From the NCBI GenBank assembly GCA_904419285.1, contig CAJFQZ010000022.1:1-46280 (forward strand): a stretch of DNA of 46,280 nt. Reading direction: 5' to 3'. A program made the position numbers and the translations under genes. Of the stretch, positions 41,738 to 46,280 are shown piece after piece. Source of the DNA: Lachnospiraceae bacterium UBA1818. GTDB taxonomy: Bacteria; Bacillota; Clostridia; Lachnospirales; Lachnospiraceae. The notes beneath the pieces are model-generated. The model saw only the letters and a list, made by a program, of their open reading frames with translations. It was not told the DNA's origin and did not search any database. Position 1 is the first letter of the stretch. Every line of letters begins with the position of its first letter.

Positions 41738-41786
41738 CTTACACGTGTAATATCATTATATTACACGTGTAAGATTTAAATGTCAA
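41738..41786 (-). promoter_or_regulatory. Carboxypeptidase promoter with two BlaI-type operators
   Basis: Minus strand TTGACA (41786-41781), 17 bp, TAATAT (41763-41758). Two perfect palindromes TTACACGTGTAA lie at 41739-41750 and 41761-41772, 22 bp centre to centre, one in the spacer and the other at the start site; the whole block has 16-bp symmetric arms. TACA-N2-TGTA is the core of BlaI/MecI boxes. Confidence 0.85.
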
Positions 41787-42796
41787 GGAATATTATAGAA
41801 AGAATATTGTGTCACAATAAACCGTTTCCCGGCAGAAAAATCGTTGTGGTAATGATTAAAGAAATAAGCTGATCCGGATGCTTCCGTTCCGTAATAACAC
41901 ACCTTTGCCAGTTCCCGGTTCCCCTCCAGTTTTGTGATCTGGTAAGTTCCGCTTCCCGGCCCCGGTTTTGACGGCTGAATACAAAACGCCGTGGCTGTTA
42001 CATTTCCAAAAGTAACCGTAAACGGAGCTGTCAGGTAAGAACCAAGACCATAATCTGCATAATAATACCAATCTCCCTGCGTGATGGTTACGGATTGCAA
42101 TGCCCTAGCAGCTCTCGCCATTGGAGCCTGCGCCATAAAGCTAACGCTCTCTCCATTTTTCAATCCCTGAATGTCAATTCCCTGATCCTCAGCCTGTAGA
42201 AGCACTTCCCCAAGCGTCAGACCACTTTCTTCATCCACAGTCTTTTGACCTTCGCTTTCCTTCAACGCCGCATCCAGATCCTCTTCCGACAATATCTCTG
42301 CCTCCTTCGGAAGTTCTGTCACATTCTCGGTTTCCAGTTCTGTCTGCGGCTGTTGCTCTGAATCTTCATCCTCACTTTCCGCTTCAGTACTCTCCTCACC
42401 GGTTCCACCACCGTCAAAAACGTGATAAAATGGATGACCACTGACCGGCTCCACAAAGTACACTGCTTTATAAGTGTCCGCATGGTTCCCATCATAGTTC
42501 TGCCCCGCTTCATTCTTCGCTTCGTGGAATGTTACCCGTACTTTTTCATCATTGATTTCCAAACCAGAGAAATCAGATTCCACATCAAAGCCGCTTCCTG
42601 CTTCTACTTCATAATCTTCCGCAGTTACCACTTCTTCCATATCCAGAAGTTCCCGCACTGTCTCCAGCGCAGGATACTGGGCTTCATAACCTGCCGGCTC
42701 TGCCGCATATGTAACGAACATTGGCTGGATTACAGAAGTCAGGATAGTCAGCAGTGAGAGTACACCTGAAAGCGCTCTTTTTGCTTTCCCTTTCAT
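41783..42796 (-). pseudogene. Thioester-domain surface adhesin, C-terminus lost
   Basis: A 337-codon reading frame starts with a signal peptide (MKGKAKRALSGVLSLLTILT, ending VTYAAE), an acidic linker (about 130-220, rich in Glu, Ser and Thr), and the start of a thioester-type domain (ATAFCIQPSKPGPG; LAKVCYYGTEASG). Family sequence breaks after GKRFIVT and the last codons read QYSFYNIP before a stop inside the carboxypeptidase -35 box. Intact relatives are long wall-anchored proteins with CNA-B repeats and a sorting signal, often carried by conjugative elements. All of that is missing, so a deletion or rearrangement cut it at about 41800-41815. AGAGG precedes the start. Confidence 0.7.
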
Positions 42797-42889
42797 TAAC
42801 GAAACCTCTCTTTCTTCATTTCTGTATCATAAAAGTTCCTGTGTTTTTATCTTTTCATGGTTTTCCATCCTCCTTTCCCAGATTTGCAC

Positions 42890-42963
42890 TGATAACAGCA
42901 CATGAATGCGGAAAAGCCCTGAAAGAACTTCCCCGCATGGCATCTGCTGTTATCCAGCCCGCA
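42890..42963. other. Large imperfect hairpin upstream of the adhesin remnant
   Basis: GATAACAGCA (42890-42899) pairs with TGCTGTTATC (42954-42963), and inside it ATGCGG (42905-42910) with CCGCAT (42932-42937). The structure of about 74 nt lies in the adhesin leader on the minus strand and could be a regulatory RNA or transposition end. Apart from it, the gene-free stretch 42797-43242 shows only unconvincing short frames. Confidence 0.45.
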
Positions 42964-43242
42964 TACTGCAGGCTGATAATGATTATTGAGCGTTATGCCT
43001 GTTCTCTTTCCAGACCCGTTCCTGCTCCGACTCACTTTCCGCAACGTTCTCTCCGGCAGGGTACGCAAACAGCACACTCACATACCGGGTATCCATCTGG
43101 ACAGGCAATGAAATTGTCAAGGTTCGATGAAAGGGAAAAAATAAGAATGTATTTTAAAACTCTGCCCTCTCACTAATGGCAGGTTTCAGAGGGGAAAATA
43201 TAGGTTGGAATAAAAAAATATTTAGAAATTTTTCCGATGTGG

Positions 43243-43248
43243 TATAAT
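43243..43248 (+). promoter_or_regulatory. -10 element for the zinc-ribbon hypothetical gene
   Basis: TATAAT with a weak -35 (ATTTAG, 17 bp upstream), 58 bp before the gene start. Confidence 0.4.
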
Positions 43249-43305
43249 CAAACTAATCATTTTATATTTTTCCATAATTTGTTGATTTTAAAGGAGAAGA
43301 TTTCC

Positions 43306-43854
43306 ATGACCTGGAATAAAGAGGGAATACCACATAAAGGATGGCGTTGCATCGACGTTGAAGACTTGGCTGATCTGGTCGATGGCACAGAAGAGATACC
43401 ATATGAGCAATGTGAAATGTGTGGAAATGAAAGAATTCGATTTGTACATCTCATGCAGCATCCGGACTATCCACATGAATTGCGTGTTGGATGTGTTTGT
43501 GCGGAAAAGATGTCTGATGATTATGTGAATCCACGAAAATCTGAGGAGGTTTTAAGGAAACGAGCTTCACGCAGGAAGAATTTTAACAATAAAGAATGGC
43601 GATTTAATCCAGAAAAACAGACCTACAGCAAAAAATATAAGGGCGAATACATTACCATTAAAAAAAGTCGTTATGGAAATTTTGGAATCTTTTTCGCCAA
43701 TGAGCGTTTCTGGAATTATAATGGAAAAAAGTTCTATTCTTTTGAAAATGCTGAACGGGCAGCTTTTGAAATATTTGAAGAATTACATACCACACAGGCA
43801 GAACGAGAACACCAATACTGGCTTTCCCGGAGGAATTCTTATGGGAACTACTAA
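43306..43854 (+). CDS. Hypothetical zinc-ribbon protein
   Basis: The 182-residue cytoplasmic protein is of unknown function. Near the N-terminus YEQCEMCGNERIRFVHLM and, about 25 residues on, RVGCVCAEKM give a Cys-X2-Cys plus Cys-X-Cys set that looks like a zinc-binding ribbon. The rest is basic and aromatic (RKRASRRKNFNNKEWRFNP, then GNFGIFFANERFWNYNGKKF), suggesting nucleic-acid binding. AAAGGAGAAG precedes ATG 43306; the ATG at 43237 is not supported. Codon use is AT-rich, unlike the chromosome to the left, and it lies among mobile-element debris. I recall similar genes in integrative elements but no function. Confidence 0.7.
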   Translation: MTWNKEGIPHKGWRCIDVEDLADLVDGTEEIPYEQCEMCGNERIRFVHLMQHPDYPHELRVGCVCAEKMSDDYVNPRKSEEVLRKRASRRKNFNNKEWRFNPEKQTYSKKYKGEYITIKKSRYGNFGIFFANERFWNYNGKKFYSFENAERAAFEIFEELHTTQAEREHQYWLSRRNSYGNY

Positions 43855-44323
43855 TAAGATCTGCCCACGCTGCGGCAGGAAGATAAAATAGTAGTTCATT
43901 TACCATCAGAGCTACAAATGTGAAATTCTTAACTTCCTGTTACTTTTGACACTCAATCAAAAAAGTCTTGTAAATGCAGTGTTTTATGGAAATCCAAGAG
44001 CAAAATAATGAGGGTTAATTATGTCTCTATTATTAGCCCGCAATTTACGAAAATTCCTTGAAAAATCAAGCGCTATACAATTGAGTGTTAAAAATCAAGG
44101 AAGGTCAGAGAAATAATCTGGAAAACAAATGCTGGGCCTTTTAAGTGAACAAACTAATATGGTATTCTGTCTTCGCACAAACGAAGGTAGAGAACATGCA
44201 ACGTAAAAATACTTGCCTTTCACTAAATCCATTTTTATTCCATACTTGAAAAACAATAGTTTGCTTAAGTAAGGAATAATGACCATGTATCAGTACACTC
44301 ATAAAGTACGCGTAGAGTCCTAA
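43855..44323. other. AT-rich intergenic stretch without a supported gene
   Basis: About 470 bp with stops in all frames. Only short frames (31 codons at 44021; 63 codons on the minus strand, 44286-44095) and a small CTTCG-CACAAA-CGAAG hairpin near 44178 are seen. It reads as decayed mobile DNA. Confidence 0.6.
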
Positions 44324-44566
44324 AAGAAAATTATCAAAGCCTACAATCCATGTCCGGCAGGTCAGTCAACAAAAAAAATAAAAGAAAACGGAATCTTGGA
44401 GCAAAGTTACTATCATTGGCAGCGGAAGTTCAGAAAGCAGGCTTATAAGCAAATAAAAGGAGCGACTTTTGCTGTTTCTGCAGTGATAGAAAATTCATAG
44501 GTTTCTTTTTTGGAATTTCCTTACCAAAATTCATACAAAAAAGAGCAGGGATTCGAGGGAAGTCAA
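44324..44566 (+). pseudogene. Degraded IS66-family TnpA fragment
   Basis: The frame from 44324 reads KKIIKAYNPCPAGQSTKKIK, then ENGILEQSYYHWQRKFRKQA and YKQIKGATFAV, which resembles the small IS66 accessory protein TnpA: an N-terminal helix-turn-helix ending YYYWQRKxR. It has an in-frame stop at 44498, after which similar sequence (VSFLEFPY) continues to 44566. The N-terminus is missing and no tnpB or tnpC follows. A remnant of a former IS66-type insertion. Confidence 0.6.
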
Positions 44567-44725
44567 TGAAGACTTGGGTGAGAAGATCATCGGACTTATG
44601 ATGTTTTCGATTTTTGTTGTTTCGTACACTCGGAAAGTAATCAAATAAGATTCATCTTCGAAAAGTATTTTAAATTATAAAAGAAACTCTCAGTATTATT
44701 AAAAGAGATTGAGGAGGATATTGAT

Positions 44726-46075
44726 ATGAAAACAATTAATTATAAAATAAATCATATGAAGTATCATACCAGATGGCTTGAAGAACTTGTTAGTAAATTT
44801 TTTGATATACTCAATATAGGTGATTTGGTCCAGGAACAGGTACATCTTATAGAGCTGTGCGAATCTGATAAAGAACTATGGATCGGGAATTATAGAAAAA
44901 CGGATGATTGTTTACAAAAAGATTTGAACGATTGGATCGTACAGGGAGAGCCTCAACATTTTCATGGGAAAACATACATTTTTTCTAATAAATTTAAATA
45001 TGAAGGCTTTAAAGGTAATTTCATAGTTGCGCTTAAATATGATGATGCAATGTTTGAAAAGTTTATACAAACATACCTGAGTAATTTGATAAATCGTCTC
45101 CTTTGTGTAATAGAACAGACAAAAGTATCAAAATGGCATGCTCATGACGGCGCAAAAAATTTATCTAGCCTAATTTATTTATGGAGCAGGGAATTTGTAC
45201 ATGATAAAATATGCAGCAATACATTAATCTTGTCGCAGATTTCTCGCTATCTAGAATTAACAGCTATAGAAGCCATTGCTGATATGAAATATGAAAGTAA
45301 TGATGTTTCAGGAAGATTTATTGCAGTATCATCATGTTCTAATAAATGCGAGATTAAATTGACTAATACAGAAACACCGATACAACTGAATGAAACGAAA
45401 AAGATAAGAAAGTTATTGGAGATTACATATCAGTCAGGTAATAAAGGCTTATATTTGTTTTATAATAGAAATTATGTAGAGGGATTTATTTCTCCCCAAA
45501 ATCTTAAAGGGGAATATTATCTTATAGAATTTCTAGGTTCCGGCCGCTGGAGGTTTTGCAGCTCATCAGGAATCAATTCCAAACAGAAAATAGAGTTTGG
45601 GCATAATAATTGCAGTATTACTTCATCCCATGAGCGTTACAGTAAAAAGTTTATGGAGTGTTTTACGAATATTTTTGGACCAAATAACTCTTTAAATATT
45701 CCTTGTAAGATTTTTGACAAAGCTAGATGGCAAAAGCATGGGACGATGTTGGTTTTTCTTGAGGATGCCGATATAGAATGCAATAGATTAAAACAAGCGG
45801 GATTTTCTGTTGAGATTAAAGAAAAACCTGAGAAGTACATTGCTCAAATTACAGCTATTGATGGTGCTATATTGATAAATGATCAGGGCACGATTTTTGC
45901 AATCGGGACAATATTGGATGGTAAGATGCCTGAAGGAACAGGGGTTGATCTATCTAGAGGAGCGCGATATAATTCTGCCATTAAGTATTCTTACTCATAT
46001 AAAAAGAAAAATCTGTGTGTCGTTATTTCGGAAGATGGTTATGTGAATTTTATCAGTAACGGTAAAGAGCTCTAG
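44726..46075 (+). CDS. Protein with DisA_N/diadenylate-cyclase-like C-terminal domain
   Basis: 449 residues, AT-rich, with GAGGAGG before the ATG and no signal peptide or membrane helix. Residues 1-190 are not recognised. Residues about 195-300 look like a sensor module (GRFIAVSSCSNKCEIKLTN; GLYLFYNRNYVEGFISPQNL). Residues about 335-440 match the pattern of a diadenylate cyclase fold: KHGTMLVFLEDAD, AIDGAILINDQGTIFAIGT (D379-G-A), SRGARYNSAIKYSYS and VVISEDGYVNFI. In active cyclases the second motif is R-H-R; here it is R414-Y-N, so it may bind rather than make a nucleotide. A possible C-terminal continuation lies out of frame downstream. Setting suggests a defence or stress-sensing cargo gene. 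Function unknown. Confidence 0.72.
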   Translation: MKTINYKINHMKYHTRWLEELVSKFFDILNIGDLVQEQVHLIELCESDKELWIGNYRKTDDCLQKDLNDWIVQGEPQHFHGKTYIFSNKFKYEGFKGNFIVALKYDDAMFEKFIQTYLSNLINRLLCVIEQTKVSKWHAHDGAKNLSSLIYLWSREFVHDKICSNTLILSQISRYLELTAIEAIADMKYESNDVSGRFIAVSSCSNKCEIKLTNTETPIQLNETKKIRKLLEITYQSGNKGLYLFYNRNYVEGFISPQNLKGEYYLIEFLGSGRWRFCSSSGINSKQKIEFGHNNCSITSSHERYSKKFMECFTNIFGPNNSLNIPCKIFDKARWQKHGTMLVFLEDADIECNRLKQAGFSVEIKEKPEKYIAQITAIDGAILINDQGTIFAIGTILDGKMPEGTGVDLSRGARYNSAIKYSYSYKKKNLCVVISEDGYVNFISNGKEL

Positions 46076-46173
46076 CTAACATTTATATTTTGTCAGGACA
46101 TAATAATTCTTTCTTTACTGCAGAAGATGCCCGCGATCAAAAAACTATTGATAAATTAATTGAATGCATATGA
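46075..46173 (+). pseudogene. Out-of-frame coding remnant after the DisA_N-like gene
   Basis: In a different frame from the preceding gene, codons 46075-46170 read without stops and look protein-like (SGHNNSFFTAEDARDQKTID, then KLIECI, stop). No start or ribosome binding site is present. It resembles a C-terminal helix of the upstream protein family and suggests a frameshift or small deletion near 46065-46075. Confidence 0.35.
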
Positions 46174-46205
46174 CTATAATGCTAGTATAACATCTTTTAA
46201 ATAAC

Positions 46206-46234
46206 TGGACTTTATATTCCGCTCATGATAGAAT
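46206..46234 (+). promoter_or_regulatory. Promoter of the gene at the right edge
   Basis: TGGACT (46206-46211), 17-bp spacer, TAGAAT (46229-46234) with an upstream TG-A. It points to the gene starting at 46266. Confidence 0.55.
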
Positions 46235-46265
46235 ACTTACATCAAGTGGTGGAGGTATCTTATCT

Positions 46266-46280
46266 ATGGGAAGAAAATCA
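46266..46280 (+). CDS. Start of a gene cut by the window edge
   Basis: GTGGAGGTATCTTATCT then ATG, preceded by a plausible promoter, begins a reading frame of which only MGRKS is in the window. Nothing can be said about its product; it may be the functional neighbour of the DisA_N-like gene. Confidence 0.5.

Follow-up and report, generated by a model that had tools for sequence, protein, structure and literature searches.

An RxN-type DACNH-DAC protein in a Lachnospiraceae genome: R-x-N in place of RHR is the family consensus

Near the end of a 46,280-nucleotide contig of Lachnospiraceae bacterium UBA1818 (CAJFQZ010000022.1; the whole of this stretch is called the window below) lies a gene for a protein with a diadenylate cyclase (DAC) domain in which R-Y-N stands where the canonical DisA/CdaA/CdaS class has RHR, and the question it raises is whether such a protein is a disabled cyclase kept as a sensor or belongs to a family in which these letters are normal. 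A first-pass annotation, made from the sequence alone, took the former view and proposed a nucleotide-sensing component of an undescribed defense or stress system; its observation is partly confirmed and its interpretation partly supported. The R-x-N triplet (hereafter RxN) is the consensus of the whole family of these DACs and not a loss peculiar to the window gene. As to what the gene is, we give about even chances to its being an accessory, horizontally acquired, orphaned member of the RxN-type DACNH-DAC family that probably functions in a conflict system. Its features are the following, where rows are those of the family alignment described below.

44726..46075, + strand: the RxN-type DACNH-DAC gene, an intact open reading frame (ORF) of 449 amino acids (aa) with an ATG start
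44712..44717, + strand: Shine-Dalgarno-like AGGAGG, read directly, 8 nt before the ATG
44726..45256, + strand: residues 1-177, without an accepted family match, the sole part of the protein outside Pfam families
45257..45547, + strand: residues 178-274, DACNH (PF21750), a probable sensor domain, 34.5 bits against a gathering cut-off of 27
45725..46066, + strand: residues 334-447, DAC domain (PF02457), 45.4 bits against a gathering cut-off of 27, E 7.3e-12
45860..45868, + strand: DGA motif, residues 379-381, with D379 in 103 of 103 rows
45959..45979, + strand: GARYNSA, residues 412-418, where GTRHRAA is expected, R414 and N416 being present in all 103 rows
46028..46039, + strand: SEDG, residues 435-438, where SEETG is expected, S435 and D437 being present in all 103 rows

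The DAC fold suspected in the C-terminal domain is borne out both by the Pfam match and by the predicted model of the protein (mean predicted local distance difference test score, pLDDT, 85.1), which matches the structures of CdaA and DisA; the annotation had named the lack of a structural match as a reason to abandon its view, and the fold was found, with the DGA, GARYNSA and SEDG markers in place. Beyond the fold, the protein shares with CdaA and DisA the DGA, the G-x-R and the S-E, and differs from them in the replacement of H by Y and of R by N within RHR, of the preceding T by A, and in the shortening of SEETG to SEDG; no transmembrane segment is predicted, and no counterpart of the DNA-binding part of DisA was found. 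The large N-terminal region that had been called unrecognized is so in its first 177 residues, which give a poor model when folded alone (pLDDT 51.9), and not in residues 178-274, the DACNH domain, which Pfam names 'probable sensor'. A PADLOC scan of the protein matched no family.

The letters RYN are as the annotation read them; what does not hold is that they mark a loss in this gene. An alignment of the window protein with 102 relatives (103 rows, 102 distinct sequences; L021 and L065, being truncated, were excluded) spans at least Bacillota, Bacteroidota, Cyanobacteriota, Planctomycetota, Pseudomonadota, Actinomycetota, Chloroflexota and methanogenic archaea, and throughout it G339, D379, G380, D398, G412, R414, N416, S435 and D437 are invariant, while position 415 is Y in 85 rows, F in 13, H in 4 and L in 1. 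The scan of genome_contigs had selected loci by an ILDG pattern, so that D398 was partly pre-selected and N416 was not, and the viral scan (six loci) searched for the RxN pattern, so that it carries no evidential weight on RxN. Among the kept genome_contigs loci, the best 80 of 332 confirmed, 78 fit G[AS]R[YFH]NS[AG] and the remaining two read RYN-G and RFN-N. All 30 canonical DACs retrieved from related genomes have GTRHRA, including the cdaA of the window genome itself, which reads GTRHRAA. When the two families are aligned by profile, GARYNSA falls opposite GTRHRAA, DGA opposite DGA and S-E opposite S-E, with a weak overall score (E 0.055); whether D437 corresponds to the second E of SEETG depends on the gap placement. 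The proposition that a DAC without RHR is for that reason inactive is thus rejected, RxN being the family consensus.

What RxN may mean for activity can be approached through the ten active-site residues given for CdaA in a review, namely L31, D71, L88, G101, T102, R103, H104, S122, E123 and E124 (PMC7288161, section 2.3), a list from which the third R of RHR is absent. By motif, the window protein keeps the D, G, R, S and E123 of this list and has D for E124, the last depending on the gap placement. The third R varies outside the RxN family too, because three archaeal DAC proteins read R-H-V (L212), R-H-S (L213) and R-H-S (L215); going by size and source, our guess is that these belong to the DacZ class.

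The family also has a member in phage defense. The best NCBIfam match of the window protein is NF053872 (DS2_3_antiphage), the DAC encoded by the third gene of the DS-2 operon (patatin, CD-NTase-like, DAC), to which the DACNH and DAC regions align over residues 178-443 at E 4e-47 with the same R-Y-N, D and S positions. The two differ in length (449 aa against about 581), in the N-terminus and in the C-terminal extension, which the window protein lacks, and the window gene has no adjacent phospholipase or nucleotidyltransferase. RYN is likewise present in the DAC of an Escherichia coli DS-2-type operon (L116), annotated 'anti-phage protein', and in a Citrobacter DS-2-type DAC (L017), which at 803.8 bits exceeds the DS2_3 cut-off of 630. 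According to the DefensePredictor paper (PMC13092281), DS-2 defense was eliminated when either of two residues predicted to be catalytic in the DAC was changed, and 15 of 30 DAC homologs were located with cyclic-oligonucleotide-based antiphage signaling systems (CBASS). Since RxN is invariant and occurs in a DAC that reportedly needs its predicted catalytic residues for defense, the step from a lost RHR to a sensor is unsupported, and, because the odd active-site letters are normal for a family with an anti-phage member, the window protein is probably a functioning member of it and not a dead enzyme. To judge from its residues, the DAC domain very probably binds ATP-like nucleotides, and catalytic activity seems slightly favored; by analogy with the relatives, a conflict or defense role is rather probable. 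RxN-DACs should not, in any case, be dismissed as dead cyclases when one member of the family takes part in phage defense.

In the mechanism that we envisage, the DAC domain would bind ATP-like nucleotides, and a head-to-head dimer or larger assembly would probably still make a cyclic dinucleotide, either cyclic di-AMP (c-di-AMP) or a variant of it; the N that replaces the third R would tune the active site and not abolish it. The N-terminal region and DACNH could serve as the switch, and the output might feed an anti-phage or other conflict response of the DS-2 kind. The protein would be an orphan in its own genome, its partner lost, located elsewhere or not needed.

The setting of the gene adds two further features.

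42825..46181, no strand: an AT-rich stretch, probably acquired, GC 0.32-0.38, from base composition
46182..46280, + strand: the left end of a repeated insertion sequence (IS), with 15 bases of its transposase ORF, which begins at 46266, up to the contig end, from repeat matches

That the gene sits in mobile-looking surroundings is confirmed: its GC is 32.8%, against 49.9% for positions 1-40000 of the window, and none of 400 sliding 1350-base stretches of that part is as low, so the gene reads as imported. The fall in GC begins near 42.8 kb; housekeeping neighbors, which the annotation would have held against its reading, do occur, starting upstream of about 42 kb. The promoter-bearing gene said to follow, on the other hand, is the transposase: the contig ends at 46280, 15 bases into its ORF, 98 bases of the repeat recur with 100% identity at the end of contig C45, and genome G020 has three copies (90-92% identity), of which the full one encodes a 396-aa transposase (Pfam DDE_3 and HTH_32). 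The element, presumably IS630-like, starts 106 bases past the DAC stop, and promoter-like matches in 44400-46280 number 10, against a mean of 9.8 in shuffles. The gene at 46266 is therefore rejected both as part of a system and as a clue to one. Nor is the system undescribed, as had been suggested; the RxN-DAC family is already described (DACNH, DS-2), though little studied, and a literature search on DACNH found nothing relevant.

Right ends of the same IS form the starts of contigs C29 and C31, either of which could follow the window. The next gene is CAAX-protease-like in C29 (64-816) and weakly Rib-like in C31 (243-1376), in both cases on the strand opposite to the DAC gene, which leaves no operon partner in sight downstream, and a partner hidden beyond the IS is rejected as far as the starts of these contigs show. 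Upstream, the nearest same-strand ORF (205 aa, 872 bases away) has no Pfam match; a small upstream ORF considered as an IS66 remnant was dropped as such, having no Pfam match.

The distribution is that of an accessory gene. A search of 99 genomes with the window protein gave four matches, in its own genome, G069, G071 and G003, the last being the only other same-genus match and a 40-41-aa remnant, 68% identical, in a decayed stretch (L010:7476-7598); the gene is thus present as more than a remnant in one of 58 same-genus genomes. A single-sequence scan of genome_contigs and a tblastn search of phages each gave no match. Family searches of the PF02457 type are lower bounds, because such a search of the window's own genome returned the canonical cdaA alone and missed the window gene. 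A strong canonical DAC (at least 128 bits) accompanies the RxN-DAC in 12 of 15 tested genomes, the other three being two archaea with a weaker one (63.9 and 72.4) and one genome with none found. In a quick tree, the window protein groups with L099, L019 and L020 (Shimodaira-Hasegawa-like approximate likelihood-ratio test 99), and this set lies near eight DACs linked to an HExxH protein, with a support of 84, an open fork and long branches that make the placement unsure. The DAC gene is preceded by a gene for a small membrane protein in L099 (476-1042, 44 bases upstream) and in L020 (7573-7869, about 100 bases upstream); by tblastn, the two proteins are unlike each other. Clustering of 96 DAC loci by neighbors found a nucleotidyltransferase common to seven, a patatin-like protein to four and a 237-aa membrane protein to five; some relatives are located in CBASS-type operons, labels that rest partly on annotation. 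The proposed link to defense is supported for relatives, through the DS-2 match and these operons, and is putative for the window gene itself.

Several observations weigh against an orphaned but working conflict protein. Residue 415 is Y, at the place for which the review gives His104 among the phosphate contacts, and residue 413 is A in place of the listed Thr102 (PMC7288161). The profile-profile comparison with the 30 canonical DACs is the weak one cited above, sequence searches of the PDB gave no match, and the protein's 160.8 bits fall far below the DS2_3 equivalog cut-off of 630. No CBASS genes, neither a CD-NTase nor an effector, stand beside the gene in the 46.3-kb contig as annotated or where C29 and C31 begin, and SMODS (PF18144) has no match in the genome, other CD-NTase families not having been searched. 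A catalytically dead DAC fold, retained as a sensor of c-di-AMP or another cyclic nucleotide, would agree with the alteration of R-H-R at two of three positions, with the Pfam name of DACNH, and with the invariance of the motif, which a conserved binding site would also produce. In a mycobacterial DAC, moreover, changing RHR to AAA is reported to have abolished both ATP binding and activity (PMC3328451). That triple mutant, however, also lost the first R, which the window protein keeps; the third R is missing from the review's list (PMC7288161); and the invariance extends to the general-acid/metal and ribose-binding positions, which a mere sensor need not keep. On balance, we regard a dead sensor as unlikely.

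The family's neighborhoods bear on a different possibility, a stress or housekeeping cyclic-dinucleotide enzyme with no defense role. About 17 of the 96 DAC loci, from Hymenobacter, lie in conserved, ordinary chromosomal synteny, which makes a defense role for the whole family doubtful, and in the nearest clade, L019 and L020, which are both among the three relatives nearest to the window protein, the DAC stands alone beside ordinary genes; both facts count against a conflict role. Such an enzyme nevertheless seems improbable for the window gene in view of the foreign composition, the transposon flank, the near absence from the genus, the long branches and the mobile or operonic settings of many relatives. 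Decay could be read from the IS inserted 106 bp after the stop, the lack of a partner in either continuation, the truncated thioester-domain gene nearby and the 41-aa piece that is left of a close relative in G003, as if a larger system had left an orphan with an open frame and no present function; yet the frame is full length, the ribosome-binding site is good and every invariant residue is kept, and we think this quite unlikely.

A further finding concerns the company kept by relatives of the window gene in the same bacterial family (f1, 397 genomes including its own). A narrow profile, A3, matches nine of these genomes, the window's own among them, and in all of the other eight the DAC adjoins a same-strand gene of 746-973 aa with a conserved HExxH motif, downstream in six and upstream in two. 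The window clade is close to these pairs in the quick tree, across the open fork; the window gene differs in that it has no HExxH neighbor, either on its contig or within the first 9 kb of C29 and C31 as listed. A profile of the HExxH protein run over 106 DAC-bearing loci matched eight, the very eight from which it was built, and did not find the gene in the window, L019, L020, L022, L051 (titled Lachnospiraceae or Roseburia) or L099. Across genomes, it matched 5 of 58 of the same genus and 14 of 397 of the family, 18 in all, and the neighbor is not always a DAC: it is an RxN-DAC in eight (L011, L154-L160), a membrane protein of 376-480 aa, for which a simple hydropathy count gives 3-5 hydrophobic spans, in seven (L169, L170, L171, L195, L196, L197, L199), and a SIR2_2 protein in three (L172, L173, L198), one of these also with a TIR_2 protein. 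The window genome has its own HExxH gene on contig C14 (L169:5380-9179), where the gene directly before it encodes a protein of 388 aa with four hydrophobic spans. Of the 18 copies, one contains internal stops and one is in two pieces.

The HExxH protein matched no family above noise in Pfam (eight copies by alignment and four singly), NCBIfam (eight) or PADLOC (seven), so that, in the copies scanned, none of these collections names the candidate system; positions 635-721 of its alignment A4, in the C-terminal part, match RNase L weakly in the PDB (E 0.0055). Its profile found nothing in the 115 stretches of viral_contigs, and a literature search found no title or abstract on the DAC-HExxH pair, which is not proof of its absence from print. 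The HExxH protein with a DAC, SIR2 or membrane partner is a candidate for an undescribed modular system, its pattern resembling that of defense systems with exchangeable effectors. It is conceivable, if a long shot, that RxN-DACs are one exchangeable signal or effector module of an HExxH-centered conflict system and that the window gene is its orphaned, moved DAC-type module, whose product, owing to the change from R to N, might be a non-standard cyclic dinucleotide, and which might act in trans with the HExxH protein of C14.

Some further observations concern other loci and neighbors. In L008 (9027-11915, identical to L048), an HD gene that PADLOC matches to dGTPase (2.2e-11) is followed, one base later, by an RxN-DAC, an arrangement that recalls deoxynucleotide triphosphatase (dNTPase) systems restrained by a nucleotide signal, and Clover in particular, in which a dNTPase, CloA, has a nucleotide-making partner, CloB; this is a lead only. 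Clover is unlikely as the family of the window gene, which has a clear DAC fold and no HD neighbor, CloB being reported to be of another fold class, a Pol-beta-type nucleotidyltransferase and not a DAC (PMC12265719). Within the window, 41783-42796 on the - strand encodes a 337-aa surface protein with a partial thioester domain (TED_2, profile positions 2-91 of 131) that looks truncated. At the start of C29, beside the IS right end, lie a bacteriocin-like peptide with a double-glycine leader (PF10439; L176:1954-2136) and secretion-transporter genes.
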